Of a stretch of DNA of 37,401 bases, positions 2,997 to 32,902 are shown in pieces. Both the position numbers and the translations under genes were made by a program. The notes beneath the pieces were generated by a model that searched no databases, was not told the origin of the DNA, and worked only from the letters and a program-made list of their open reading frames with translations. The stretch's first letter is position 1. The number at the start of each line of letters is the position of its first letter. The stretch comes from Leptolyngbya sp. (GTDB taxonomy: Bacteria > Cyanobacteriota > Cyanobacteriia > Leptolyngbyales > Leptolyngbyaceae): contig QBMH01000020.1 in NCBI GenBank assembly GCA_003249025.1, positions 1 through 37,401 on the forward strand. Direction: 5' to 3'.

Positions 2997-5900
2997 GTGG
3001 CAGTTCCCAATAAAGTCCTTGAGTTGGTGAAACAGTTTCGGGAAAATGAGAGCGTTTATCGATCGCCCGACTACAAAGAAGCCCATATTCGCCAAGACTT
3101 TATTGATCCGTTTTTTGCTGAGCTAGGCTGGGATCTGCGGAATGAGCAAAATGCCTTAGAAGTCTACAAGGAAGTAATTTTTGAGGATGCGATCAAAGTG
3201 GGTGGCTCTACGAAAGCGCCCGATTATTGTTTTCGGGTGGGCGGCAACCGCAAATTTTTTGTGGAAACGAAGAAGCTATCGGTCAATTTGGCGGATATCG
3301 TCAGTGCGGCGTTTCAGGTGCGGCGGTATGGCTGGTCGGCAAAATTGCCTGTCAGTATTCTGACGGATTTTGAAGAGTTTGCGGTGTATGACTGCCGGGT
3401 GATGCCAAATAAGCAGGACAAACCAACAACTGCGCGATCGCTTTATTTGTCCTACACCGACTATGCCGATCGCTGGCATGAAATTTACGATTTGTTCTCA
3501 AAGAAAGCAGTGTTAGCCGGATCGCTGGAGCAATTTGCCGATGGGCATAAACAACGGAAAAGAGCTACCACAGTAGACGCGGCATTTTTGAAGGAGATTG
3601 AAACGTGGCGGGAACGATTGGCGATCGCGCTATCGAGTAGCAACCCAGATTTGTCGTCACGGGAATTGAATTTTGCGGTGCAGATGACAATTAATCGACT
3701 GATCTTTCTGCGAATTTGTGAGGATCGGGGGATTGAGCCTTATGAACAGTTGCGATCGCTGACTGAGAAAGCAGAAGTCTATCAGCAATTGTGTGGGCTG
3801 TTTCGGCAAGCGGACGATCGCTATAATTCTGGACTATTCCACTTTAAGCCGGAGAAAGGCAGACTGGAAGCCGATGAATTTACGCTGACGCTGACGCTTG
3901 CCGATGCGCCGCTTCAGCAAATCATCCAAAATTTCTACTATCCCGACAGTCCCTATGAGTTTTCAGTGATTCCGATCGAGATTTTGGGGCAGGTATATGA
4001 GCAGTTCTTGGGCAAGGTGATTCGGCTGACCCCAGCACAAGAGGCTGTGATTGAGGATAAGCCAGAGGTGCGGAAGGCTGGCGGAGTCTATTACACGCCG
4101 ACGTACATTGTCGATTACATTGTGGAGAACACGATCGGGCGATCGCTGGCAGGAAAAACGCCCAAACAAGCTGAAAAAATTCGAGTGCTTGATCCGGCGT
4201 GTGGCTCCGGCTCATTTTTGATTGGGGCATATCAGTTTTTGTTGAACTGGTATGTGCAGCAGTATTCCGAGAATCCGACGAAGTATAGGAAGCAACTGTA
4301 TCAGGGTAGTGGCGGCGACTGGCGGTTGACTTCGGCAGAAAAAAAGCGGATTTTGCTGAACCACATTCATGGCGTAGATATCGACCTGCAAGCCGTGGAA
4401 ACCACGAAGCTGTCTCTGCTGCTGAAAGTGTTGGAAGGAGAATCCCAGGAAACGCTATTTAAGCAACTCTCGCTCTTGCAAGAACGCGCCTTACCTAACC
4501 TAGAACAAAACATCAAATGCGGCAATTCCTTGATCGGTTCAGACTATTACGACACTGTGCAAATTAATTTACCAAACAAGGAAGAATTGTATCGAATTAA
4601 TGTGTTTGATTGGGATGAAGGTTTCCCCGAAATTATGCAAGCTGGTGGCTTTGATGTCGTCATTGGCAATCCCCCGTATATCCGAATTCAAGCGTTAAAA
4701 GAATGGGCACCGATTGAAGTTGAAATTTACAAGCAAAAATACACAACTGCTAGTAAAGGAAATTATGATATTTACGTTGTTTTTGTTGAAAGAGGAATCG
4801 AACTACTCAATCAGAAAGGTTTTTTAGGATTTATTCTTCCTCACAAGTTTTTCACTGCTCAATATGGTCAATCTTTACGTGCTTTAATTTCAGAAGGGAA
4901 GCATATTCAAAATATTGTACATTTTGGTGAACAGCAAGTATTTACGGGAGCAACGACTTATACCTGTTTGATGTTCTTAAACAAATCTGGTAATGATGAA
5001 GTTGTTATTTCAAAAGTTGATGATTTAGTTTCATGGCGTATTAGCCAACAAGCAACAGAGAGTAAAATTATTAGCACTACTATTACTGATTCAGAATGGA
5101 GCTTTTCAGTAAAGGAAAACTCGGAAATACTATCAAGAATTAGTAGAGTTCACCCAAAACTAGGCAGTGTAGCTCATATTTTTGTTGGAACTCAAACAAG
5201 TGCCGATGACGTTTATGTCTTGGATGAATGTTCTCTGGATGGTCAGTACATTACAGGAAAGTCTAAGTCCTTAGGGAAAGTAGTTAGAGTTGAAGCTGAG
5301 TGCGTCAAACCCTTTCTTCGAGGCAAACAAATCCGTAAATATGAGCCACCCAAAACAAGCTCTTACTTGATATGTCCTTATAATATTTCAACCCATGAAT
5401 ACATTCTTCTTTCAAAGATAGAAATGCTGGATAAATTCGCTTTAGCAATGAACTATTTAGAAGCAAATCAGGAGAAGCTAGGCTTACGGGAAAAAGGGAA
5501 ATTTCAAGGTCAGAATTGGTATGCTTTTGGCTATCCAAAGAGCATGACTCTGTTTCAGAAACCTAAAATTATTGTTCCTGATTATAATAATGTTGCTTCA
5601 TTTACATTAGACCAGGAAGGGCACTTTTATAAGACAGGATATGGTGTAATTCTCAAGGATAATCTTACCTCGTATTTCTACATTCTGGGTCTGCTTAATT
5701 CAAAGCTTCTATTCCAATATCTGCTGTCTATAGGTACTTTCTTACGAGGCGGCTATATTCGTTTTTGGACACAGTACATACAGCAAATCCCTATTAAATT
5801 GATTGATTTCTCAAGTCCCGATGAAAAAGCGAAACACGATCGCATTGTGCAACTCGTCGAGCAAATGCTGGCATTGCACAAGCAACTTGCTGAGGCAAAA

Positions 5901-6023
5901 ACGCCGCCGCAAAAGAGCATGATTCAGAAGCAAATTAACGCCAGCGATCGCCAGATTGATCAACTGGTCTATGAGTTGTATGAATTGACGGCGGTGGAGA
6001 TCGAGATCGTCGAAGGGATGTGA
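2997..6023 (+). CDS. Type IIG-like restriction-modification enzyme
   Basis: One 1008-residue polypeptide carries cleavage, methylation and recognition functions. The N-terminus resembles HsdR-type nucleases, with a PD-(D/E)xK site (P75-D76 and E90-T-K92). The centre is an N6-adenine methylase, with motif I DPACGSG at 399-405 and NPPY at 558-561. The C-terminal part (about 570-950) has the TaqI/Eco57I-type specificity-domain look, followed by a short helical tail. The start is GTG with AGGCGAG upstream. No separate hsdS, hsdM or hsdR gene is nearby. Codons from about 4550 to 5800 are AT-rich and no HIP1 octamer occurs between about 4148 and 5944, unlike both ends of the same gene. The recognition sequence cannot be read from the DNA. 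Confidence 0.88.
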   Translation: MAVPNKVLELVKQFRENESVYRSPDYKEAHIRQDFIDPFFAELGWDLRNEQNALEVYKEVIFEDAIKVGGSTKAPDYCFRVGGNRKFFVETKKLSVNLADIVSAAFQVRRYGWSAKLPVSILTDFEEFAVYDCRVMPNKQDKPTTARSLYLSYTDYADRWHEIYDLFSKKAVLAGSLEQFADGHKQRKRATTVDAAFLKEIETWRERLAIALSSSNPDLSSRELNFAVQMTINRLIFLRICEDRGIEPYEQLRSLTEKAEVYQQLCGLFRQADDRYNSGLFHFKPEKGRLEADEFTLTLTLADAPLQQIIQNFYYPDSPYEFSVIPIEILGQVYEQFLGKVIRLTPAQEAVIEDKPEVRKAGGVYYTPTYIVDYIVENTIGRSLAGKTPKQAEKIRVLDPACGSGSFLIGAYQFLLNWYVQQYSENPTKYRKQLYQGSGGDWRLTSAEKKRILLNHIHGVDIDLQAVETTKLSLLLKVLEGESQETLFKQLSLLQERALPNLEQNIKCGNSLIGSDYYDTVQINLPNKEELYRINVFDWDEGFPEIMQAGGFDVVIGNPPYIRIQALKEWAPIEVEIYKQKYTTASKGNYDIYVVFVERGIELLNQKGFLGFILPHKFFTAQYGQSLRALISEGKHIQNIVHFGEQQVFTGATTYTCLMFLNKSGNDEVVISKVDDLVSWRISQQATESKIISTTITDSEWSFSVKENSEILSRISRVHPKLGSVAHIFVGTQTSADDVYVLDECSLDGQYITGKSKSLGKVVRVEAECVKPFLRGKQIRKYEPPKTSSYLICPYNISTHEYILLSKIEMLDKFALAMNYLEANQEKLGLREKGKFQGQNWYAFGYPKSMTLFQKPKIIVPDYNNVASFTLDQEGHFYKTGYGVILKDNLTSYFYILGLLNSKLLFQYLLSIGTFLRGGYIRFWTQYIQQIPIKLIDFSSPDEKAKHDRIVQLVEQMLALHKQLAEAKTPPQKSMIQKQINASDRQIDQLVYELYELTAVEIEIVEGM

Positions 6024-6717: not shown

Positions 6718-7292
6718 CGCTAAGTCCTCTTTATCAAAGCCTGTCTTAGAAACCTTTATTGTATTTGGAACTCCATACTTAACAACAGTCCGGACAATTT
6801 TAAATTGCTAACGGTAGAATGCGGGTTTTAGCCTCCTCAGGGAGGTCAAATGCCAACGGCAGAATGGGGGTTTCAGCCTCTGTCTCAAAAACTGTCCGGA
6901 GTATTGACTTAAGAGATCGTCCTAATGTGGGTTTTCTATAACCCCATTCGTTTAGCGGAGGGATTGCTCGAATGAATTATCTGCAAAATTATTGACTTAC
7001 CCGTTTGTAAAGTTTAAACCACTGCAACAATCCAGTTGGTTGTAGCCCCAATTCACGGTAGGCTTAGAAAGCTTGAATACCAAAATAGAGACGTTCAATA
7101 CTTTACCTATTGGTTCTTGAAACTTTTTAGCATGACTCTGAAGTTGCTGAGCGGATAGGGTTTTAAGGAAGAATAAAGTTTCAATTTGAGTTCTATCGGA
7201 TTGAAATGGGCAAGAACCGCAGAAAATATCTGTTTTTGGGGTAGCAAGTTCCAGCACACTACACATTAGTTTGTATCAGGAATTGGGTGGGT
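6718..7292. other. 575-base stretch without a supported gene
   Basis: It holds the divergent control regions of the SRPBCC gene and hemF plus a MITE-like element (6778-6913). An 89-codon minus-strand frame (6997-7266) exists but has no recognisable domain and no HIP1 site. Another GTGGGGTT-like remnant at about 6925-6950 echoes the direct repeats of the element. No RNA gene was recognised. Confidence 0.5.
6778..6913. mobile_element. MITE-like element with inverted ends
   Basis: The ends are imperfect inverted repeats: the 24 bases from 6778 match the reverse complement of the last 26 bases (6888-6913) at 21 positions with a 2-base gap, sharing CTTAA, CAA, TCCGGACA and TTTT. Inside, a 29-base unit occurs twice in direct orientation (6807-6835 and 6852-6880, 25 of 29 identical), with a CCTCC/GGAGG hairpin between them. 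It has no coding capacity. Size and structure suggest a non-autonomous miniature element; no clear target duplication was found. Confidence 0.5.
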
Positions 7293-8345
7293 ATGACAGC
7301 TTTTTTTACTTCTGAAGCAGCCATCGTCGATAATGCTCTTCCTCCTAGTAACTCTCGTGAGCGGGTCAGTCAGCTATTACGCGATCTGCAAGATGAAATT
7401 TGCAGTGGCTTAGAGCAAGCCGATGGAATTGGCAAGTTTCGGGAAGACAGTTGGGTTCGGGAAGAAGGGGGGGGCGGGCGATCGCGTGTCTTACGGGATG
7501 GCAACATAATCGAGCAAGGCGGCGTGAACTTTTCTGAAGTCTGGGGAAAAGATTTGCCGCCTTCTATTCTGGTTCAGCGTCCTGAAGCCGCTGGGCATGG
7601 GTTTTATGCCACAGGCACTTCAATGGTGCTTCATCCTGGCAATCCCTACATTCCCACGGTTCACTTGAACTATCGCTATTTTGAAGCGGGTCCCGTGTGG
7701 TGGTTTGGCGGTGGCATTGATCTCACGCCCTACTATCCCTTTGCCGAAGACGTAGTGCATTTTCATCGCACTCTCAAGCAAGCGTGCGATGCTCATAATC
7801 CTCACTACTACCCCGCCTTTAAGCTGTGGTGTGACGAATATTTTTATCTAAAGCATCGCAACGAAACGCGTGGCGTAGGTGGGTTATTCTTTGACTATCA
7901 AGATAATCAAGGGAAGCTTTATCCCATCTCTTATCCCGGATCTCATAGCGATACCCCTGCCGCTCACTATAGTCAAACGGTGGGCGATGTCCAAGGACGC
8001 AGTTGGGAAGATATTTTTGCCTTTGTGAAAGATTGCGGAAAAGCCTTTTTGCCTGCCTATGTGCCGATCGCGGAACGTCGTCAAGCCACGGAATACGGCG
8101 ATCGCCAACGCAACTTCCAGCTTTATCGGCGCGGACGGTACGTCGAGTTCAATCTCGTATACGACCGAGGCACCATTTTTGGATTGCAAACGAATGGTCG
8201 CACTGAATCTATTCTGATGTCTTTGCCGCCCCTCGTGCGTTGGGAATACGGCTATGAACCTGAACCCAACACTCCAGAAGCTGACCTTTACACAACTTTC
8301 CTCAAGCCTCAAGATTGGATTAACTGGACTCTGCCAAATTCCTAG
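7293..8345 (+). CDS. hemF: Aerobic coproporphyrinogen III oxidase
   Basis: HemF oxidatively decarboxylates coproporphyrinogen III to protoporphyrinogen IX with O2, feeding haem, chlorophyll and bilin synthesis. The 350-residue protein is full length with the expected [38 protein letters not shown] and GVGGLFFDY segments and the C-terminal [15 protein letters not shown]. The ATG at 7293 gives the usual N-terminus; an in-frame GTG lies two codons upstream. An eight-G run at 7467-7474 encodes the glycine string. It is monocistronic here. Confidence 0.97.
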
Positions 8346-8483: not shown

Positions 8484-8864
8484 ATGGAGCAAAAATCGAT
8501 TCATATGGAGCAAAAAAACCATACGACCCAAGATGGCACCACTGTGATTGTCCTAGTTCCAACTGGGCGCTTAGACATTACCACGGCATGGCAATTTCGT
8601 CTTAAGTTGCAGGAATGCATTTCTAAGCTAAGCCACCATGTTGTGGTTAATCTAGGTCAGGTCAATTTTATTGATAGTTCTGGCTTAACCTCTTTGGTTG
8701 CTGGAATGCGGGATGCTGACAAGGTAAGAGGCAGCTTCCGCATTTGTAACGTCCATCCTGAAGCTCGGCTAGTGTTTGAAGTAACCATGATGGATTCGGT
8801 ATTTGAGATTTTTGATACTGAAGAAGAGGCTTTAGAAGGCGTTCCTCGTGGAATTGCGAGTTAG
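8484..8864 (+). CDS. STAS-domain anti-sigma factor antagonist
   Basis: This 126-residue SpoIIAA/RsbV-type STAS protein has the GRLDITTAW strand and the NFIDSSGLTSL phosphorylation loop, in which one of S65/S66 should be the kinase target. Such proteins release sigma factors or other partners from a switch kinase; no partner gene lies nearby. AGGAGAAGGG sits 10 bases before the first ATG. The first seven codons are nearly repeated by the next block (MEQKSIH then MEQKNHT), giving a second possible ATG at 8505. Its stop overlaps the stop of convergent cpcT. Confidence 0.88.
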   Translation: MEQKSIHMEQKNHTTQDGTTVIVLVPTGRLDITTAWQFRLKLQECISKLSHHVVVNLGQVNFIDSSGLTSLVAGMRDADKVRGSFRICNVHPEARLVFEVTMMDSVFEIFDTEEEALEGVPRGIAS

Positions 8865-9478
8865 TCCTCTGTGATCTTTTTAGATCTTTCTTGGCTGTAA
8901 TCTTGAGTCTTCGTGTATTGATAGGGACCCATCATTGCTCCCCACAAAGCCTTATTGGTTTTTGGGTCAACTCCTTTGTCGTAGGTTAAGTACTTGTCGG
9001 CACTGGCTTCAAAACCAAGGACAACCTGCCGTTCTTCTCCTTGATAAGTAAAGCAGCAACGGGCACCTTCTGGCGGCTCTGCGATGAAGCGATCGCCCTC
9101 CAGCAAACTCACATTTAAAATGCAGCCCGGTAATAGATTGATCTGTTCAAGCGTTACCGATTTGAGCAAATCTGGATTATTTCCAGCCCCCTTGACCATG
9201 GCTGGATCTTTAAATTCGTAATACTGAACCTGTAATATGTGAAGTGGCTCTGACGCAGGCTGTAGCCGCATTAAACGCTGGCGATAGGGATTTTGCAAAT
9301 TCATAACGTTTGCCTGTTCTGCAAATAGCGTAATGCTGTCCTCGCCAAAAAGCGCCATTGGACGCTGCCATAGCCGTAGGTGAACATACCAAACAGGTTC
9401 AGCCGCCGCTTGCTTAGAATTCTCAAATTCACCCGTGAGATAGGAAGCAAGGTTTAAAAGATTGGACGAAAGGGGCAT
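8861..9478 (-). CDS. cpcT: CpcT/CpeT-type phycobiliprotein lyase
   Basis: The 205-residue protein has the CpeT/CpcT pattern: NLASYLTGEFEN at the start, VHLRLWQRPMALFGEDSITL, NPYRQRLMRL, a central FKDP and LLPGCILNV segment, and SADKYLTYDKGVDP near the end. CpcT attaches phycocyanobilin to the second cysteine of the phycocyanin beta subunit (about Cys-153/155); other members act on phycoerythrin, so substrate is inferred. It supports a phycobilisome-bearing cyanobacterium. It is divergent from thf1 (133 bases) and convergent with the STAS gene, with 4 bases shared. Confidence 0.87.
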   Translation of the reverse strand: MPLSSNLLNLASYLTGEFENSKQAAAEPVWYVHLRLWQRPMALFGEDSITLFAEQANVMNLQNPYRQRLMRLQPASEPLHILQVQYYEFKDPAMVKGAGNNPDLLKSVTLEQINLLPGCILNVSLLEGDRFIAEPPEGARCCFTYQGEERQVVLGFEASADKYLTYDKGVDPKTNKALWGAMMGPYQYTKTQDYSQERSKKITED

Positions 9479-9611
9479 AGTGAAAGGGTGAAGAGGTAAA
9501 GGAGTGGGGGAAAAGGGACGAACTTAATGATCCGCTGCTTCTTTCACAAAACTTGGCAAACGTCTCATCACGAGCGAGAATGAAGAAGAGATCAACCACC
9601 AAAATTCTACT

Positions 9612-10355
9612 GTGAATACTGTCCGTACCGTTTCAGATACTAAGCGAGCGTTTTACTCCTGCCATACTCGCCCAATTAATTCGATTTATCGTCGGGTGGT
9701 TGAAGAATTAATGGTGGAGATGCATTTACTTGCTGTAAATGTGGATTATCACTATGATCCGATTTATGCTTTGGGCGTAGTCACTTCACTCGATCGTTTC
9801 ATGCAGGGATATCGCCCTGAGCAAGATAAGGATTCCATTTTTAATTGTCTTTGCCAATCGCTGCCAGATGATCCTCAACGGTATAAAAGCGATGCCGAGC
9901 GGTTGACAACTTTTGCTCACTCAGTCGGCTCAGCGAAAGAGTTGGTGTCTTGGTTGGAAAACGCTGCCACGATCGCATCGGGGGATGAGTTACAAGAACA
10001 GGTCAAAGCGATCGCCAACAATCCCAAATTTAAATACACTCGATTATTTGCCATTGGGTTATTTACATTATTTGAATTGGCAGATTCGGAAGCGGTACAA
10101 AACGAAGCTCAGCGTCAAGAATTTTTGAAGGAAGTTTGTGCGGCTCTGCGGTTACCTGAAGACAAAATCCAGAAAGATTTAGAGCTTTACCGTAGCAATC
10201 TAGAGAAGATGGCTCAGGCTCAGGCAGTAATGGCAGATATTTTACAAGCCGGTAAGAAAAAGCGGGAAGAACGGCTTCAGGCAAATAGCGGGAATGGTTC
10301 TAGTTCCGTTGATGTGACTGAAACTCCTAAAAACGAAGCCGCTTCAGGTTCTTAA
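9612..10355 (+). CDS. thf1: Thylakoid formation protein Thf1/Psb29
   Basis: This 247-residue protein matches Thf1 (Psb29): TVSDTKRAFYSCHTRPINSIYRRVVEELMVEMHLL at the start (quoted in parts: TVSDTKRAFY, HTRPINSIYRR, VEELMVEMHLL), VDYHYDPIYALGVVTS, then YTRLFAIGLFTLFE and a charged coiled-coil C-terminus. Thf1 is needed for photosystem II repair and thylakoid organisation and is known to work with FtsH proteases. The start is GTG at 9612. The lipoxygenase begins three bases past its stop, so the two are very likely one transcript. Confidence 0.95.
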   Translation: MNTVRTVSDTKRAFYSCHTRPINSIYRRVVEELMVEMHLLAVNVDYHYDPIYALGVVTSLDRFMQGYRPEQDKDSIFNCLCQSLPDDPQRYKSDAERLTTFAHSVGSAKELVSWLENAATIASGDELQEQVKAIANNPKFKYTRLFAIGLFTLFELADSEAVQNEAQRQEFLKEVCAALRLPEDKIQKDLELYRSNLEKMAQAQAVMADILQAGKKKREERLQANSGNGSSSVDVTETPKNEAASGS

Positions 10356-10358
10356 TGT

Positions 10359-12254
10359 ATGTCCCCTCATACGTCTTCAACCCCTCAGCAAGGTCACTAT
10401 CGGTATGATCCGACTGCCTTAGATCAACAAGGTCCGGCACGTCTTTTTTCTCATGTTGGGGAGGATGGCATTGCACGATATATTGCAGCGCAATTAGGAC
10501 AAGCGGCTGTTGAACAGGGCAAGTTATCCCATCCTTTAAGCTTGCTGGGCAACCAGTTAAAGCGTACAGTTCACAAAGCGGACGAACTTTGGAACTTCAT
10601 AACAACCCGGCTAGTCAATCTAGAAATTTTTCAATCAGGCTGGTTTAATTTTGACTTGCCGCCGGATGAGCAATTTGGAGTAGGATTTGTTCGCGATCGC
10701 CGCGACATGATGGAGGCATTATTATCAGCGCGACAAGCAGCGGTAAAGGAAACTCAGCCAACCCAATCTAGGGGGCGATTTTACCAGGTTTTGGAGCAGC
10801 ATCGGAGATCGCGCCCAATCGTCGTTCACATCCATGAGCGGGAAGGCGGGTTAAGCGATCGCGAGTTTGCTCGTCAGCGTCTTGCTGGACAAAACCCAAT
10901 GGTATTGCGTCGCATCCAGACTGCTGATCAACCGTTGTTGCAAAGCTGGGCGGCTGTAGATTGCTTGCTTGCTAGTGGCGATCGCGTTGATCTGGAGCAA
11001 GCGGCAACGGATAATCGCTTGTTTGTGGCAAAGTATCCACTGCTGCAAAGCTTGACGGTTGCCGACTTGCAGCCTGGACGATATGTCGGTAGTCCTATTG
11101 CACTGTTTTATCGCACTCAAAACGAGCTAGAACCGCTGTTGATTCAGCTTGAAACTGGGCATGTCGTCACGCCACACAATGCATCCGGTGATGCCTGGAT
11201 GCAAGCAAAATTATTTGTGCAAGTGGCGGATGTGACCCATCACGAGTTGATTAGCCATCTGTGTGATACGCACCTGGCAATGGAAGCCTTTGCGATCGCG
11301 ACTCCGCGTCAGTTGCCCACTACCCACCCATTGTATCGACTGCTGCGTCCCCATTTTCAGTTTTTGTTAGCCATTAATAATCGAGGTAACACCGTGCTGT
11401 TAGGCGAAGGAGCCGCGATCGATAACTTAATGGCTCCGACGCGCCAAGCTTCAATTGGACTGATCAATCGCGCCTATCGAGAGCGATCGTTTGGGGATTA
11501 TGCCTTGCCGAAAAATATCCGACAGCGAGGGATTGAACCTGAATTTTTGCCAGAGTTTCCCTATCGAGATGATGCGATGTTGCTGTGGGATGCAATTCAG
11601 CGGTACGCGACTCAGTTTTTACAGCAGTACTATCCAACGGATGAATCGGTACAGCAGGATTTTTATCTGCAAGCTTGGGCGGCGGAATTAGGCAGTTCTC
11701 TCTGCGATCGCCCCCTGAGTGATTTTCCTCAAGCTCCTGCTTGGCTCCCGACCGAAGCGATCGCCCAAGCAGGGCTTGATCTACACGAACTACCCGACTA
11801 CCCGCGAGTGCCAGGGTTCCCGACCGAGATTTCTAGTTTTCACGATCTTGTTGAAATTACCACTCAACTGATTTTTACCTGCGGTCCTCAACACGCAGCG
11901 GTGAACTTCAGCCAGTTTGACTATGTGGGCTATGCGCCAAATGCACCACTAGCAGCCTATTGTCGTCCTAGCTCCTGCACTTCCATAGAGCAACTACTGC
12001 CGTCGCTGACACAAGACTTAGGACAAATCGAGTTGAGTTTTGCCCTTAGCGGCATTCGTTGGGGCAGATTGGGTAATTCTGACTTGATCGACTTCAAAGA
12101 TAGTGGCGATCGCCAAGTATTAGAGCAGTTTCGGGCAGAGCTAGTCGCGATCGAGCAACAAATCACGCAGCGTAACCACAAGCGAGTCGCGTCTACAGGA
12201 ATAGCCTATCCTTATCTGCTCCCGCCCCGCATTCCCAACAGTATTAATATTTAG
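10359..12254 (+). CDS. Lipoxygenase (catalytic domain only)
   Basis: Lipoxygenases add O2 to polyunsaturated fatty acids. The 631-residue protein shows the iron site: HELISH (H295, H300), HAAVN (H512, N516) and the C-terminal isoleucine I631 in NSINI, whose carboxylate is a ligand. The stretch WMQAKLFVQVAD, the TH and LLRPHF motifs, and FDYVGYAPNAP also fit. Plant enzymes have Q where E296 stands. No N-terminal PLAT/C2 domain is evident. The ATG is three bases after the thf1 stop, implying co-expression. Its stop is three bases from that of the convergent HEAT gene. Regiospecificity cannot be predicted. Confidence 0.92.
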   Translation: MSPHTSSTPQQGHYRYDPTALDQQGPARLFSHVGEDGIARYIAAQLGQAAVEQGKLSHPLSLLGNQLKRTVHKADELWNFITTRLVNLEIFQSGWFNFDLPPDEQFGVGFVRDRRDMMEALLSARQAAVKETQPTQSRGRFYQVLEQHRRSRPIVVHIHEREGGLSDREFARQRLAGQNPMVLRRIQTADQPLLQSWAAVDCLLASGDRVDLEQAATDNRLFVAKYPLLQSLTVADLQPGRYVGSPIALFYRTQNELEPLLIQLETGHVVTPHNASGDAWMQAKLFVQVADVTHHELISHLCDTHLAMEAFAIATPRQLPTTHPLYRLLRPHFQFLLAINNRGNTVLLGEGAAIDNLMAPTRQASIGLINRAYRERSFGDYALPKNIRQRGIEPEFLPEFPYRDDAMLLWDAIQRYATQFLQQYYPTDESVQQDFYLQAWAAELGSSLCDRPLSDFPQAPAWLPTEAIAQAGLDLHELPDYPRVPGFPTEISSFHDLVEITTQLIFTCGPQHAAVNFSQFDYVGYAPNAPLAAYCRPSSCTSIEQLLPSLTQDLGQIELSFALSGIRWGRLGNSDLIDFKDSGDRQVLEQFRAELVAIEQQITQRNHKRVASTGIAYPYLLPPRIPNSINI

Positions 12255-12257
12255 TGA

Positions 12258-12929
12258 TCAGGACTCCGCACCCAACCGCTCTAGAGAAATTCGGGCAGCT
12301 TCAGCGACCTGTGGATGGCTATCTTTTGCCAGATATTTCGCAGCGGAAACACTTTTTGGGGTGGGCAAGTGTCCCAACGCTTCCGCAAGCCGCTGACGAA
12401 CCAGCCAATCTTCCGACTGAGCAAAGCGGAGAATATGGTCTACAGAGTCGATCGCTTTAATTTCACCCAATGCCGCGATCGCCGCCTGCTGCAATACCAC
12501 TTCCTGACTATCCAATGCTTGGATTAGTACATCATAAGCACGCGGATCTTTCAAATTACCCAAGGAGACCGCCGCACTAAACCGCACCAACCATTCTGTG
12601 TCTTCATAAAAAGTGCGAACCAGTGGCTCCAAGGCACGAATGTCTTCCAAATAACCCAACGCTCCCGCCGCATCAGCTCGAATGCTATAGTCCGATTCAT
12701 TCGTTAAAACATCCAGCAGTAACGGATAGCATTCATCAGTCTGCTTGATTCCTAAAGCAAACACCGCCATCGATCGCACTTGTAAATTTTCATCGTGCAG
12801 CACTTTTTTAATCAAGGGCACCGCGTCAATCGCCGGCACATCTCGCAGAGTTGCCAACGCAATCCGGCGATCGCGCACATTCTCGCTTTCCAAATCCGCC
12901 GCAATTTTTTCTAAATTTGGCTGAGTCAC
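12258..12929 (-). CDS. HEAT-repeat protein
   Basis: The 223-residue protein is built of about six HEAT/PBS-lyase-like repeats with the recurring pattern of VRxxAAxALG: VRSMAVFALG, IRADAAGALG, VRFSAAVSLG, LQQAAIAALG, VRQRLAEALG. Cyanobacterial relatives include bilin-lyase subunits (CpcE/F) and NblB-like factors, but this sequence lacks features that would assign it to one. It lies 99 bases downstream of the GPH symporter on the same strand and could be in its transcript. A scaffold role is inferred. Confidence 0.85.
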   Translation of the reverse strand: MTQPNLEKIAADLESENVRDRRIALATLRDVPAIDAVPLIKKVLHDENLQVRSMAVFALGIKQTDECYPLLLDVLTNESDYSIRADAAGALGYLEDIRALEPLVRTFYEDTEWLVRFSAAVSLGNLKDPRAYDVLIQALDSQEVVLQQAAIAALGEIKAIDSVDHILRFAQSEDWLVRQRLAEALGHLPTPKSVSAAKYLAKDSHPQVAEAARISLERLGAES

Positions 12930-26446: not shown

Positions 26447-26812
26447 ATGCCTCTTCATACCATTCAAATTCGTGATCGCCGCACCAACACACTCCACACC
26501 GTCCAAATTCCTGAAGACCGTTACATCCTGCAATCGGCGGAAAATCAAGGAGTCCCATTACCCTTCGCCTGTCGCAATGGAGCTTGCACGACCTGTGCCG
26601 TGCGGGTAATTTCTGGCGAACTCTATCAACCTGAAGCGATGGGGCTATCTCCAGCTTTGCAGCGCCAAGGGTATGCCTTGCTTTGTGTCAGCTATCCGCG
26701 TTCTGATTTAGAAGTAGAAACTCAAGACGAAGATGAAGTGTATGAGTTGCAATTTGGGCGATACTTTGGCAAGGGCAAAGTCAAACGCGGACTTCCCCTT
26801 GACGAAGAATAG
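26447..26812 (+). CDS. Plant-type [2Fe-2S] ferredoxin, extended C-terminus
   Basis: The 121-residue protein has the plant-type cluster ligands C42-x4-C47-x2-C50 and C80 (FACRNGACTTCAVR and LLCVSYPR). It is longer than the usual 97-99 residues: a 20-residue tail (LQFGRYFGKGKVKRGLPLDEE) follows an acidic EDEDEV-like stretch. C-terminally extended relatives in cyanobacteria and plants are called FdC2, a role in chlorophyll metabolism having been proposed for the plant form; assignment is by memory. The ATG at 26447 is used rather than GTG at 26426. Confidence 0.85.
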   Translation: MPLHTIQIRDRRTNTLHTVQIPEDRYILQSAENQGVPLPFACRNGACTTCAVRVISGELYQPEAMGLSPALQRQGYALLCVSYPRSDLEVETQDEDEVYELQFGRYFGKGKVKRGLPLDEE

Positions 26813-26843
26813 TTTGCCATTCATCCCTCCGTCCTTAGTTTCT

Positions 26844-27686
26844 ATGCCTGTTTCTCCTAGTCAACTTCAAATCTTTCTTGATATTGCCACCGAAGCCGCC
26901 CTAGCCGCAGGTGCAATTTTGCAACAGCATTGGGGCAACCTAGAAAGTGTGGAAGAAAAAGGTCTTTCTGGAAATCTCGTTACGATCGCAGATCGCGATG
27001 CGGAAGCGGCTATTTTACAGGTACTTCAGCGCCATGTGCCCGATCACAAGATTTTGGCTGAAGAATCGGGGCAACTGGGAAATTTGGAGAGTGAATTCTT
27101 GTGGGCGATCGATCCCCTTGATGGCACCACCAACTATGCCCACTCCTACCCCGTCTCTGCCGTGTCGATCGGTCTCATGCTTAACGGAGTACCCATCGTT
27201 GGAGCCATTTTTGATCCGTTTCGGCAAGAGTTATTTTGCGCGGCGACAGGGCAAGGAGCCACCTGTAACCGTCGCCCGATTCGCGTCTCTAAAACGGTTG
27301 ACCTGAGTCAAAGTTTGCTTGTGACTGGCTTTGCCTACGATCGCCGTCAAACCACCGATAATAACTACGCTGAATTTTGCTACCTCACCCACCTCACTCA
27401 TGGCGTGCGGCGCAGTGGCTCTGCCGCCATGGATTTAGCCTATGTTGCCTGTGGTCGGCTGGATGGCTATTGGGAGCGGGGCTTGGCTCCTTGGGACATG
27501 ACCGCTGGAGTGATTTTGCTGCAAGAAGCTGGCGGCAAAGTCACCGGCTACGACCAATCCCCTTTACAAATCGAATCGGGACGTATTTTGGCAACCAATG
27601 GAGCCATCCACGCCAGTCTTAGCCAAGAACTGCACCGGGTTCCCTCCTTAGAAACTTGGGCAGATTCCACCAAGTTTGTTGGCTGA
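26844..27686 (+). CDS. Inositol monophosphatase (SuhB-like)
   Basis: The 280-residue phosphatase has LVTIADRDAEAAIL, LAEESG, IDPLDGTTNYAHSYP and the closing ERGLAPWDMTAGVILLQEAGG, the full metal-binding set of the family. It dephosphorylates inositol-1-phosphate or a similar substrate. It starts 31 bases after the ferredoxin stop, so both may be in one transcript. An upstream open frame extends into the ferredoxin gene and is not used. A second enzyme of the same family lies at 22562. Confidence 0.88.
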   Translation: MPVSPSQLQIFLDIATEAALAAGAILQQHWGNLESVEEKGLSGNLVTIADRDAEAAILQVLQRHVPDHKILAEESGQLGNLESEFLWAIDPLDGTTNYAHSYPVSAVSIGLMLNGVPIVGAIFDPFRQELFCAATGQGATCNRRPIRVSKTVDLSQSLLVTGFAYDRRQTTDNNYAEFCYLTHLTHGVRRSGSAAMDLAYVACGRLDGYWERGLAPWDMTAGVILLQEAGGKVTGYDQSPLQIESGRILATNGAIHASLSQELHRVPSLETWADSTKFVG

Positions 27687-27753
27687 CCTTAGCGCAGACC
27701 ATGAGCGGTCAGATTACACTAGAGAAAATTCCACGGCAGGCAGCAAGTACACC

Positions 27754-28710
27754 ATGTCTTTTCAATTTGAGCGAGGGTTGTTTTTATTAGATTTTGTAGA
27801 CCATCACGCCATATTAGGGGTGCCAATTGATGCAGACGTTGCAACCATTCGGAAGCGCTACCTTAAGGTTGCTCGTAAGCTACACCCTGACAGCGGTGCA
27901 TTAGACAATGAAGCAGATAAAAAACTGGCTAGCGAATTTTTATCAAAGCTTGTAAACCCTGCCTGGGAAAAGCTTTCTCAAGAAAAAGACCGCACGGAAT
28001 ATGGCATTGTCTTGAACTTGAAGGGACAACAAGCCAACCGTCAAGGAAACTGGGATTTGGGCAATTTGGGTAAAGAGATTGCTAATGCGAGCAATCCTGA
28101 GCATTTTTATCGCGCTTCGTTGAAAGGGCTTGCCGATAAACAGTATGAGCAATTAGAACAAGCGCTAGAAGTCACGGGGCAAATTAGCGAACTCAATATG
28201 GTTTATCTGATGCGGAAGGAGCGTCAAGGTGGGTTTAGTACGGGTGACACCTCGCGAACAATTTACACAGGCAGCAATCTGCCAGATTCATCGCAATCCT
28301 CCACTAGACCCTCAGCTACAAAGCAACCGCAAGCAGCGCGTCCAGAGTCAGTAGCCGATCAATATTACCGTCGTGCAGAGGGCTACATGGCGAAAAACAA
28401 TTATGCCAAAGCAGTTTTAGAACTGCGCGATGCACTTCAGCTTGAACCCAGAAATGGCAGTTGTCATGCATTACTCGGAGCCGTTCATCTAAAACAAGGT
28501 CAAGGAACCATGGCAAAAATTCACTTTAACAAAGCGCTGGAGTTTGATCCGACTAATGCGATCGCGCTGGAAGGCAAACAAAAGCTAGACAAAACAACTG
28601 GCACTTCAGCAAACTCCAAAAACTCGACTCAAAAGCCGAACTCCAAAACGAATAAACCTGACGATAAAGCAGGTGGCGGTCTATTTGGTTTATTTGGGAA
28701 AAAGAAATAA
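27754..28710 (+). CDS. J-domain protein with TPR repeats
   Basis: The 318-residue protein starts with a J domain (about 15-80; HPD at 44-46), the Hsp70-stimulating motif. A helical middle, a Ser/Gln-rich linker, then TPR units (VADQYYRRAEGYMAKNNYAKA and ALLGAVHLKQGQGTMAKIHF, about 200-275) suggest substrate binding. The tail is Lys/Ser/Asn-rich and ends in GLFGLFGKKK. It probably brings a client to DnaK. The ATG at 27754 fits the J-domain start; an upstream frame from 27676 is unlikely. Its stop codon TAA abuts the hisZ ATG. Confidence 0.85.
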   Translation: MSFQFERGLFLLDFVDHHAILGVPIDADVATIRKRYLKVARKLHPDSGALDNEADKKLASEFLSKLVNPAWEKLSQEKDRTEYGIVLNLKGQQANRQGNWDLGNLGKEIANASNPEHFYRASLKGLADKQYEQLEQALEVTGQISELNMVYLMRKERQGGFSTGDTSRTIYTGSNLPDSSQSSTRPSATKQPQAARPESVADQYYRRAEGYMAKNNYAKAVLELRDALQLEPRNGSCHALLGAVHLKQGQGTMAKIHFNKALEFDPTNAIALEGKQKLDKTTGTSANSKNSTQKPNSKTNKPDDKAGGGLFGLFGKKK

Positions 28711-29946
28711 ATGGTCTATCAACCGCCTGCTGGAGCGAGAGATCTCCTTCCCTTAGATGTTGCCCAAAAGCGTTGGATTGAAGACCGCTTGCAGCAGATG
28801 TTTCATCAGTGGGGCTATCACCGCATTATCACTTCAACCCTAGAGCGGTTGGATACCTTAATGGCAGGGGGAGCCATCCAACGATCAACCGTGTTACAGC
28901 TACAGGGGCTAGATGAGGAAGACTTGGGGTTACGCCCTGAGTTGACCGCCTCGATCGCCCGGACTGTCGTAACACGCATGGCAGGAGCAACTTACCCGCT
29001 CAGGCTTTACTATAATGCCAACATCTTTCGCCGCGCCCAAGAAACCAGCCACACACGCCAGCAGGAATTTTACCAGGCGGGTGTAGAGCTACTGGGCAGC
29101 GGTGGATTGCTGGCGGATGCGGAAACGTTGCTGCTGTTGATGGATTGCCTGCAAAGCCTTGAATTACGCCAGTGGTCGATTGTCCTAGGTGAAGCGGGGT
29201 TAACCCGATCGCTGCTGTCTGTGTTTCCATCCCCAATTCAATCCAGGGTGCGGCAGGCGATCGCCACCCTCGATCGCATTGCCCTAGAAACTTTACCCAT
29301 GAGTCAGGAACTCCGCGATCGCGCCTTGCTATTGCTCGATCTACGCGGCACTCCGACTGAAGTCTTTCAAAAAATTTCTAGTTTAGATCTCAACCCAACA
29401 CAGCAAACCGCCCTAGATAACCTCAAATCCCTCATCGACCTATTACAAACCACACCAGACACCGGACACCGGACACCTTATTCCCTCGTTCTAGACCTCA
29501 GCTTAATTCAAACCCTGGATTACTACACCGGCATTGTGTTTGAGGTGATTGGTGATACTCCCAATGGGCGACAAGTATTGGGGCAAGGCGGACGCTACGA
29601 CCAACTGTTGGGGTTATATCATCCCCAAGGTGAAACCGCTCCGGGTATTGGCTTTGCTTTGCAAATTGAGCAACTCCATCAGGCGATCGCCCTAACTAAT
29701 CAGATCCCTCAGCACATTCCAACCAGCGATTGGCTCGTGGTTCCAGTAAGCCCTCAAGCTTACACTGCGGCTCTTGCCCATACCCAACAACTTCGGACAA
29801 CTTCAGATACAGTAAGAGTCGAACTGGATTTAGGAGGACGCACTCCCGCCGAAATTCATGATTACGCCCAACACCGTCAGATTGCCGCGATCGCTTGGAT
29901 TTCGCCAGACGGCACCGCCAAGATTGAACCCGTCAAACTGGAATAA
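28711..29946 (+). CDS. hisZ: ATP phosphoribosyltransferase regulatory subunit
   Basis: HisZ is a histidyl-tRNA-synthetase-like paralogue that binds short-form HisG in the first step of histidine synthesis and has no aminoacylation activity. The 411-residue protein shows GARDLLPLD, LRPELTASIARTV, YYNANIFRRAQ, QEFYQAGVELLG and LDYYTGIVFEV. A small repeat-rich insertion (about residues 248-256, TTPDTGHRTP, from GGACACC units) interrupts a variable loop. The ATG directly follows the TAA of the J-domain gene, so translation may be coupled. Confidence 0.95.
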   Translation: MVYQPPAGARDLLPLDVAQKRWIEDRLQQMFHQWGYHRIITSTLERLDTLMAGGAIQRSTVLQLQGLDEEDLGLRPELTASIARTVVTRMAGATYPLRLYYNANIFRRAQETSHTRQQEFYQAGVELLGSGGLLADAETLLLLMDCLQSLELRQWSIVLGEAGLTRSLLSVFPSPIQSRVRQAIATLDRIALETLPMSQELRDRALLLLDLRGTPTEVFQKISSLDLNPTQQTALDNLKSLIDLLQTTPDTGHRTPYSLVLDLSLIQTLDYYTGIVFEVIGDTPNGRQVLGQGGRYDQLLGLYHPQGETAPGIGFALQIEQLHQAIALTNQIPQHIPTSDWLVVPVSPQAYTAALAHTQQLRTTSDTVRVELDLGGRTPAEIHDYAQHRQIAAIAWISPDGTAKIEPVKLE

Positions 29947-30452: not shown

Positions 30453-31181
30453 ATGCCCGACTCTGCTCCCCTACTCGAAGTTGAAAACGTTTACGCCGGA
30501 TATGTCAAAGATCTAAACATTTTGCAGGGCGTGAATTTTCGGATTTATCCAGGGGAACTGGTGGCGGTGATTGGTCCTAATGGAGCCGGAAAATCAACCC
30601 TAGCAAAAACGATTTTTGGCTTGTTGACTCCTAATACGGGCAGCATGGTGTTTGCTGGCAAAAGCATTGTGGGTTTGAAGTCAGACGAAATTGTGCAGCA
30701 GGGCATGTGTTATGTGCCGCAAATCTCCAACGTGTTTCGATCGCTCACTGTGGAAGAAAACCTAGAAATGGGTGCCTTTGTGCTAGATCAGCCCATTCAA
30801 CCGCTAAAAGATGAGATTTTCACGCGCTTTCCTAAACTGGCAGAACGCCGTAACCAACGTGCTGGAACCTTGTCTGGTGGCGAACGGCAAATGTTAGCAA
30901 TGGGCAGAGCGTTAATGCTAAAACCCAAACTGCTGCTGCTGGATGAACCGTCTGCGGCGTTATCGCCTTTGCTAGTAGATAGTGTATTTGAGCAAATTCG
31001 AGAAATTAATCGAACTGGAACCGCGATCGCCCTAGTGGAACAAAACGCCCGGAAAGCGTTGAAAATGTCAGATCGGGGCTATGTGCTAGAGGCAGGACGC
31101 GATCGCTTTGAAGGACGCGGCATCGATCTGCTCAATGATCCCAAGATCGGCGAATTGTATTTGGGAGCCACCAGACGATGA
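30453..31181 (+). CDS. natE: NatE/LivF-type ABC transporter ATPase
   Basis: The 242-residue ATPase has Walker A GPNGAGKST, the LSGGERQML signature and LLLLDEPSAALSP Walker B, with FRSLTVEENLEMGAF. The YVKDLNILQGVNF region fits the LivF group, to which cyanobacterial NatE of the neutral amino-acid (N-I) transporter belongs. The other Nat subunits are not in the window, which is normal for the scattered nat genes. The JAMM gene overlaps its stop by four bases (ATGA), so the two are translationally coupled. Confidence 0.82.
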   Translation: MPDSAPLLEVENVYAGYVKDLNILQGVNFRIYPGELVAVIGPNGAGKSTLAKTIFGLLTPNTGSMVFAGKSIVGLKSDEIVQQGMCYVPQISNVFRSLTVEENLEMGAFVLDQPIQPLKDEIFTRFPKLAERRNQRAGTLSGGERQMLAMGRALMLKPKLLLLDEPSAALSPLLVDSVFEQIREINRTGTAIALVEQNARKALKMSDRGYVLEAGRDRFEGRGIDLLNDPKIGELYLGATRR

Positions 31182-31693
31182 CGCTAAGCCTGAGTACCGC
31201 CCACATCCAAGCCATGAATGCTCATGCCGAACGCACTTATCCTGAAGAGTGTTGTGGTTTGATGCTCGGACACATCCAGGAAGGCGATACGGGCTTTGTC
31301 CAGATGAATCAACTCGCCAAGTCCCCCGTTCGGGTCGTGACCGCGCTCTACCCTGTTGAAAATAGCTGGGATCAGCAAGTAGCTACCGATTTGCAAGATG
31401 AATCCTCTTCCAAAACTCGCCGCTACGCGATCGCCCCCGAAGAAATGTTAAAGGCAATGCAAGATGCACGCCGCCGCAATTTAGCTATTATTGGGATCTA
31501 TCACTCCCATCCCGACCATCCAGCAGTGCCCTCAGAGTGCGATCGTCGCCTTGCATGGCAACACTATTCCTACAGTATTATTTCTGTTCAGCAGGGAAAA
31601 GCCAGAGAGTTTTATAGTTGGTGTTTAGATGCCAATCATCAGTTTCAACCCGAATTAATACAAGAAGCCATCCCTCATAACGCTGTACTCTGA
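31178..31693 (+). CDS. JAMM (Mov34/MPN+) metallopeptidase
   Basis: The 171-residue protein has a full JAMM zinc site: a catalytic glutamate in YPEECCG (21-27), H109-S-H111, S119 and D122 (HSHP...SECD). Bacterial stand-alone JAMM proteins trim the C-terminus of ThiS/MoaD-like sulfur carriers, exposing GG. It overlaps natE by four bases and is followed 36 bases on by a MoeB-rhodanese gene, which is the classic functional context. No sulfur-carrier gene is in the window. Confidence 0.9.
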   Translation: MTLSLSTAHIQAMNAHAERTYPEECCGLMLGHIQEGDTGFVQMNQLAKSPVRVVTALYPVENSWDQQVATDLQDESSSKTRRYAIAPEEMLKAMQDARRRNLAIIGIYHSHPDHPAVPSECDRRLAWQHYSYSIISVQQGKAREFYSWCLDANHQFQPELIQEAIPHNAVL

Positions 31694-31694
31694 C

Positions 31695-31722
31695 CCCCTA
31701 TTTCCTATTCCCTATTCCCTAT
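31695..31722. repeat. TTCCCTA heptamer repeat
   Basis: CCTATT(T/C) units repeat four times between the JAMM and moeB genes, a short tandem repeat of the kind common in filamentous cyanobacteria. It replaces a recognisable ribosome-binding site before moeB. Confidence 0.7.
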
Positions 31723-31729
31723 CACCGTC

Positions 31730-32902
31730 ATGCTAAATCCAAATCTGGATGACATCCAGTTAGACAAAGAAGAATATGAGCGCTATTCACGCCACTTGAT
31801 TTTGCCCGAAGTGGGTCTGGAAGGACAAAAACGCCTCAAAGCTGCCAGTGTTTTGTGCATTGGTAGCGGTGGCTTAGGTTCACCCCTACTGCTCTATCTT
31901 GCCGCTGCTGGCGTTGGGCGAATTGGGTTGGTGGATTTTGATGTCGTTGATCGCTCCAATTTGCAACGTCAAGTGATCCATGGAACTTCCTGGGTCGGCA
32001 AACCTAAAATTCAATCTGCCAAAGATCGCATTTTAGAAATCAATCCCTACTGCCAGATTGATTTGTATGAGACGCGCCTGAGTTCCGAAAACGCCCTGCA
32101 AATTATGGAACCCTACGACATCGTAGTCGATGGCACCGATAATTTTCCCACTCGCTATCTCGTCAACGATGCCTGTGTTCTGCTGAACAAACCCAATGTT
32201 TACGGCTCCATCTACCGGTTTGAAGGACAGGCAACTGTTTTCAACTATGAGGGCGGACCCAACTATCGCGATCTCTACCCCGAACCACCCCCACCTGGAT
32301 TAGTTCCATCCTGTGCTGAAGGTGGCGTATTGGGCATTTTGCCGGGGATCATTGGCGTGATTCAAGCCACGGAAACGGTCAAGATTATTTTGGGCAAGGG
32401 CACCACGTTGAACGGTCGGTTGTTGCTCTATAACGCTCTGGATATGACCTTCCGTGAATTGAAATTGCGCCCCAATCCGGTGCGTCCCGTGATCGAAAAG
32501 CTGATTGACTACGAAATGTTCTGTGGCATTCCGCAAGCAAAAGCAGAAGAAGCAGAGCAGCAATCCGCGCTCAAGGAAATGACCGTTACCGAGTTGAAAC
32601 AACTCCTCGACAGCGGCGCGGATGATTTCGTGTTGATTGATGTTCGCAATCCAAACGAGTATGAAATTGCCCGGATTCCAGGAGCGGTGCTAATTCCACT
32701 CCCCGATATTGAAAACGGTACGGGCGTACAGCAAGTTAAGGAGGCATTGAACGGGCACAAGTTGATTGCTCATTGTAAATTGGGTGGGCGATCGGCGAAG
32801 GCACTGGGCATCCTCAAGCAGGCTGGCATCGATGGGATAAACGTCAAAGGTGGTATCACAGCTTGGAGTCGAGAAATCGATCCGTCGGTGCCGGAATACT
32901 AA
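31730..32902 (+). CDS. moeB: MoeB-type adenylyltransferase with rhodanese domain
   Basis: The 390-residue E1-like enzyme adenylates the C-terminus of a sulfur carrier (MoaD/ThiS) and its rhodanese domain supplies sulfur. The ATP site is GSGGLGSP (45-52), the adenylation residues DNFPTRYLVND follow, and C195 is in PSCAEGGVLG. The rhodanese domain (about 285-388) has C349 in CKLGGRS. The two CxxC zinc motifs of E. coli MoeB are absent: GPNYRDLYPEP stands where CYRC would be. A hairpin follows the stop. It is probably co-transcribed with the JAMM gene. Confidence 0.93.
   Translation: MLNPNLDDIQLDKEEYERYSRHLILPEVGLEGQKRLKAASVLCIGSGGLGSPLLLYLAAAGVGRIGLVDFDVVDRSNLQRQVIHGTSWVGKPKIQSAKDRILEINPYCQIDLYETRLSSENALQIMEPYDIVVDGTDNFPTRYLVNDACVLLNKPNVYGSIYRFEGQATVFNYEGGPNYRDLYPEPPPPGLVPSCAEGGVLGILPGIIGVIQATETVKIILGKGTTLNGRLLLYNALDMTFRELKLRPNPVRPVIEKLIDYEMFCGIPQAKAEEAEQQSALKEMTVTELKQLLDSGADDFVLIDVRNPNEYEIARIPGAVLIPLPDIENGTGVQQVKEALNGHKLIAHCKLGGRSAKALGILKQAGIDGINVKGGITAWSREIDPSVPEY

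Follow-up and report, generated by a model that had tools for sequence, protein, structure and literature searches.

A thf1–lipoxygenase gene pair in Leptolyngbya: probably an inherited gene order tightened into a two-gene unit

Overview

In the 37,401-nucleotide stretch of Leptolyngbya sp. DNA analysed here (contig QBMH01000020.1; hereafter the window), a lipoxygenase gene follows thf1 (psb29) on the same strand after only three bases. The arrangement is probably an inherited gene order that was locally tightened into a co-directional two-gene unit, with no dedicated functional module behind it. What the locus holds is apparently an ordinary ancestral neighbourhood carrying a clade of a known enzyme family that seems to be uncharacterised. 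By title, no report of a thf1-lipoxygenase gene pair was found in the open-licence literature searched; PMC8705820, in the portion consulted, concerns plant THF1 and lipoxygenase.

The junction and the likely transcription unit

Among the open reading frames of the window, thf1 occupies positions 9612-10355 (+ strand; GTG start, 247 amino acids). Its product was identified as Thf1/Psb29 by profile search (PF11264, E = 1.1e-94) and scored well above the cut-off of the curated model TIGR03060 (255.3 versus 139.3 bits). The lipoxygenase gene (10359..12254, +; ATG start, intact, 631 amino acids) matches PF00305 (E = 3.5e-57; 194.8 bits versus a gathering score of 23.6), and no PLAT domain was matched by Pfam in its product. 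Both genes are under purifying selection, with dN/dS near 0.1 relative to the sister species (0.097 for thf1 and 0.118 for the lipoxygenase). The preliminary description placed the lipoxygenase ATG three bases past the thf1 stop, and the sequence bears this out: the junction (10353..10361, +) consists of the TAA stop at 10353-10355, a TGT spacer and the ATG that begins at 10359. The same spacing occurs in the sister species (L066, the sole other genome of the genus compared), where the stop is TGA and the lipoxygenase is 86% identical; it was seen in this genus only.

The pair is flanked by genes on the opposite strand. Upstream and divergent lies a CpeT/CpcT-family gene, cpcT (8861..9478, −; PF06206, E = 2.7e-55), and downstream and convergent lies a gene for a HEAT-repeat protein of NblB/PBS-lyase-like type (12258..12929, −; PF13646, with NF045915 below its cut-off), the end of which is three bases from the lipoxygenase stop. 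The layout is that expected of an operon, since the two genes are co-directional, are separated by three bases and leave no space between them for a promoter of the lipoxygenase's own. With genes of the opposite strand on either side, transcription of the lipoxygenase in the window is probably a continuation of that of thf1. Immediately upstream of the pair, intergenic DNA is limited to a divergent region of 133 bases (9479..9611, +), bounded by the start of cpcT (9478, −) and by the thf1 GTG (9612), so that, barring a promoter inside thf1, the lipoxygenase would depend on the promoter of thf1. This region is likely to be the promoter region of the thf1-lipoxygenase unit and, on the other strand, of cpcT. 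We envisage a co-directional two-gene unit that collapsed to a three-base junction in the window's genus, in which the lipoxygenase would most probably be transcribed from 9479-9611, and ribosomes that reach the thf1 stop would re-initiate there on the lipoxygenase. A sigma-70-like match is present at 9553-9581, but it has little meaning as the region contains four such matches versus 5.4 expected; promoter-like and terminator-like scans of the region were at chance level and decide nothing.

Further upstream, hemF (7287..8345, +; oxygen-dependent coproporphyrinogen oxidase, PF01218, E = 8.5e-130) and a STAS-domain gene of anti-sigma antagonist-like type (8484..8864, +; PF01740, cluster c6) complete a hemF-STAS-cpcT-thf1 block. 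Among genomes of the family, cpcT adjoins thf1 in 11 of 35, and hemF adjoins cpcT in 15 of 36 genomes.

Distribution of the gene pair

A lipoxygenase of the window's clade is present in 26 of the 42 genomes compared from the window's family. A genome was scored as adjacent when its lipoxygenase began no more than 5 kb past thf1 and shared its strand. By this measure the lipoxygenase lies just downstream of thf1 in 11/26 genomes, spanning nine of the 14 genera and co-directional in all 11; the pair is apart in the other 15. The gap beyond the stop in the adjacent genomes ranges from 3 to 586 bases. With the stop codon included, the window's genus has a gap of 6 bases and Pantanalinema (L070) one of 11, and the values for the remaining eight genomes run from 53 to 589. 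Six of these eight have a gap of more than 100 bases. A second family, f24, contributes four genomes in which thf1 and the lipoxygenase are separated by one further ORF (ApbA-like and on the other strand in three, a co-directional ORF of 387 amino acids in one). Gene order in the two families thus disposes of the possibility that the adjacency is unique to the window's genome. Cultured strains with the adjacency include Leptolyngbya sp. FACHB-36 and Myxacorys almedinensis A, and Stenomitos frigidus ULC18 is an example of a non-adjacent strain.

Nor is the adjacency general to lipoxygenase-bearing cyanobacteria. In genomes with other lipoxygenase types only, thf1 was found within 10 kb of a lipoxygenase in none of 75, the closest distance being 76 kb (among the matches listed, which stop short of weaker second copies; G133, G161, G202, G249 and G266, with no thf1 or no lipoxygenase place listed, were left out). 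The adjacency is therefore more than chance, given 11/26 in the family against 0/75 with other types among the matches listed.

The genes beyond the lipoxygenase, in neighbourhoods derived from a simple ORF picker (locus L193 gave no thf1 ORF, and L118 is shown beside L095), point to the history of the locus. In G299 the order is THF1-LOX-c12-c9, where c12 is polysaccharide-export-like and c9 has no Pfam match. In the g6 genomes LOX-c12-c9 is found away from thf1 in seven of seven, and in the six with a resolved thf1 locus the genes after thf1 are c16 and c14 (in five also c17), all of which lie just past c9 in G299. G122, which has no lipoxygenase, shows THF1-c12-c9. A second series runs in parallel: G034 has THF1-LOX-c49-c40 (c49, cyanate lyase; c40, cation efflux), G095 has LOX-c49-c40, and G115 and G062, both without lipoxygenase, have THF1-c49-c40. 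Since these downstream genes are shared, the simplest reading is an old thf1-lipoxygenase order from which the lipoxygenase was later lost or moved several times. The gene order would then represent an inherited ancestral neighbourhood, common to Leptolyngbyaceae-type and Oculatella-type cyanobacteria and broken many times. On the lipoxygenase tree the adjacency label needs at least six changes, two of which are forced by well-supported branches; as the backbone of the tree is partly open, the tree alone does not establish that the adjacency arose once and early. Against this reading, a search behind thf1 at 20 loci where the two genes are not adjacent gave no lipoxygenase remnants (best E = 0.71).

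The lipoxygenase clade and its neighbours in Nostocales

The window's enzyme belongs to a distinct cyanobacterial clade. Among the best 80 matches in named genomes, 53 loci (L105-L157) are 54-86% identical to it over the best segment, and the next group falls to 40%. In the lipoxygenase tree (built without L090 and L098, without L118 and other duplicates, and with L087 and L099 as single fragments) 55 clade rows are split from six outgroup rows with full support. Its named members fall in five orders, among them Leptolyngbyales, Oculatellales and Nostocales. We know of no settled physiological role for cyanobacterial lipoxygenases. The clade is apparently without a characterised member in the literature searched; among the cyanobacterial enzymes that PMC10177866 gives as characterised, NpLOX1 (630 amino acids) could in principle belong to it.

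Within the tree, one clade of 25 rows consists of Nostocales in all 19 rows of known order; of the remaining six rows, five are genomes from a single family and one is an unplaced record. In none of these 25 loci was thf1 found in the DNA around the lipoxygenase, although flanks are short for a few (1.7 kb upstream in L113). Other neighbours recur here. A gene for a photolyase-like flavoprotein lies divergently upstream of the lipoxygenase in 20/25 loci (one member of this cluster was scanned with Pfam and gave the photolyase FAD-binding domain only), and an AhpC/TSA peroxiredoxin gene (likewise one cluster member scanned) lies downstream on the same strand in 13/25, at 68-315 bases in five of them (L097, L119, L122, L127 and L138) and at up to 4.2 kb elsewhere. 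The photolyase-like protein, encoded for example at L096:5202-6038, is 274-323 amino acids long in that locus and the 19 further loci. Such neighbours are in keeping with a function in light or peroxide responses but prove nothing; the lipoxygenase may have a role of that kind.

Retention of the linkage compared with other gene pairs

If the linkage of thf1 and the lipoxygenase were that of a conserved functional operon, it should be kept above the level of ordinary neighbours, and it is not. Among lipoxygenase-bearing genomes thf1-LOX is retained in 11/26, cpcT-thf1 in 10/22, hemF-cpcT in 11/22 and LOX-HEAT in 3/25, a comparison of few pairs in genomes that are not phylogenetically independent. 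The latter three are opposite-strand pairs, for which operons are impossible. The co-directional control was one cluster chosen from the window, a tight group of inositol phosphatase, DnaJ/TPR and histidyl-tRNA synthetase-like genes (26733-29946) searched by its two outer genes; it is kept in 21/23 lipoxygenase-bearing genomes and in 29/39 genomes of the family, and its failures among the former are G304 (gene at contig edge) and G299 (genes far apart). As thf1-LOX is retained like the opposite-strand pairs, we regard it as part of an ordinary, slowly eroding neighbourhood. A single conserved module reaching from hemF through STAS, cpcT, thf1 and LOX to HEAT can be dismissed on the 3/25 retention of its last pair. 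The persistence of thf1-LOX where cpcT lies elsewhere (G034, G048, G073) or has no close match (G309, G313) would fit a pair-specific constraint; these counts are few and not independent.

The enzyme encoded in the window

Residues H295, H300, H512, N516 and I631, which we take to be the iron ligands (the three His, the Asn/His and the C-terminal Ile of lipoxygenases), are all present in the window's lipoxygenase and are kept in 32/32 aligned clade sequences. The AlphaFold2 model (mean pLDDT 80.8; residues 1-36 below 50) has the lipoxygenase fold. Its top solved match is CspLOX2 of Cyanothece (PDB 5med; Z = 37.5, 499 residues, rmsd 2.8), which is the closest solved match both by sequence and by Foldseek, shares the conserved iron ligands and is about 36-37% identical over the structural alignment; the Pseudomonas aeruginosa lipoxygenase is tied with it (Z = 37.4). 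The catalytic fold is also common to the coral 11R- and 8R-lipoxygenases (3vf1 and 3fg1; Z = 35.1 and 36.2, respectively). The enzyme is a typical iron lipoxygenase. From its ligands and fold, polyunsaturated fatty acids or acyl lipids are the predicted substrates for O2 addition, and dioxygenation of fatty acids or galactolipids is the activity expected. Its genome contains one lipoxygenase place and eight matches to the desaturase family PF00487, which makes polyunsaturated substrates plausible; the desaturase-family proteins could supply them.

At the Coffa position the window's lipoxygenase has Gly343, whereas CspLOX2 has Ala. The position was assigned by alignment to the coral 11R-LOX, in which the Gly of 'AINTLG' aligns with Gly343, and Gly occupies it in the window's enzyme and in no fewer than 90% of the 22 sequences in set A1. 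With this assignment the idea that the enzyme is odd because of Glu350 was dropped. Because exceptions are on record for the Ala/Gly (Coffa) rule, which predicts S or R products from this residue (PMC6612559), R-stereochemistry of the products is only a guess.

A possible model for the role of a thylakoid-linked lipoxygenase is LiLOX of Lobosphaera incisa, a plastid 13-lipoxygenase which, according to the part of PMC9813749 consulted, works in the photosynthetic compartment and oxidises MGDG, DGDG and PC. It is a green-algal enzyme closest to those of vascular-plant plastids, and that part of the paper mentions no Thf1 link.

Alternative explanations

The window's Thf1 resembles the Psb29/Thf1 proteins of Synechocystis and Thermosynechococcus through family membership above the curated cut-off. 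We know of no lipoxygenase beside thf1 in those strains. In Synechocystis, normal accumulation of FtsH2/FtsH3 requires Psb29 (PMC5566888), and a word search of that source gave no occurrence of operon, gene cluster, adjacent, lipid or neighbour. Lipoxygenase added to isolated spinach thylakoids damages PSII (PMC3531424). With these two observations and the oxidation of MGDG by LiLOX, a link between PSII repair and lipid oxidation is conceivable, but nothing in the genome comparisons requires it. We weighed an adaptive coupling in which the lipoxygenase is made together with a PSII/FtsH maintenance factor and helps with photo-damaged thylakoid lipids, with their turnover or with oxylipin signalling in high light. 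Several observations speak for it, namely the restriction of the adjacency to this lipoxygenase clade among the matches listed, the constant orientation in the 11 adjacent genomes, the tightening of the gap in two genera (to 3 and 8 bases beyond the stop) and the flavoprotein and peroxiredoxin neighbours in Nostocales, besides the published roles of Psb29 and effects of lipoxygenase just cited. However, the pair is split in 15/26 genomes of the family and was not seen at the 25 Nostocales-clade loci, the control cluster is better kept, and the gaps above 100 bases in most adjacent genomes outside the two tightened genera leave space for a separate promoter. Moreover, as added lipoxygenase harms PSII, there is no evident benefit in always expressing it together with a repair factor. 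We judge such a coupling rather unlikely, and the functional link that had been proposed behind the pair is not supported by a retention like that of the opposite-strand neighbours and below that of the control cluster; the retention controls show that a three-base junction alone is no ground for a functional link. A wider version, in which the whole clade acts on thylakoid lipids under light or oxidative stress, tied to Thf1 in Leptolyngbya-like lineages and wired to the flavoprotein and peroxiredoxin in Nostocales, with lipid peroxidation as an active signal or turnover step in photodamage repair, is in our estimation unlikely. The recurring neighbours (Thf1, the photolyase-like flavoprotein and the peroxiredoxin) do provide concrete genes and strains with which a link to photodamage can be tested.

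A fortuitous meeting of the two genes in a single lineage, each with its own promoter and with a spacing devoid of regulatory meaning, would agree with the many other contexts in which the lipoxygenase occurs and with the chance level of promoter- and terminator-like matches; it is at odds with an order and orientation common to nine genera, and with a junction that has no promoter space outside the thf1 coding region, and we consider it quite unlikely. That the lipoxygenase ORF is decayed or inactive is very improbable: some relatives do show decay or assembly error, with the reading frame split in G309, G254 and G247 and a stop present in G322, but the window's ORF is intact, retains every ligand and has the low dN/dS given above. 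Inheritance of an old gene order with local tightening is the reading we retain.

Additional observations

The lipoxygenase is split over two reading frames in L087, L098 and L099, where it is adjacent or nearly adjacent to thf1 (decay or assembly error). The thf1 gene of G299 (L085:7257-8055) is spread over two frames, with profile positions 1-24 in one and 25-215 in the other, through a frameshift or an assembly error. Elsewhere in the window, a gene for an Eco57I-like restriction-modification methylase of 1008 amino acids lies at 2997-6023. At 30453-32902 an ABC ATPase gene overlaps a JAB-domain gene, which is followed by a ThiF-rhodanese gene; the latter two resemble a sulfur-carrier activation pair.
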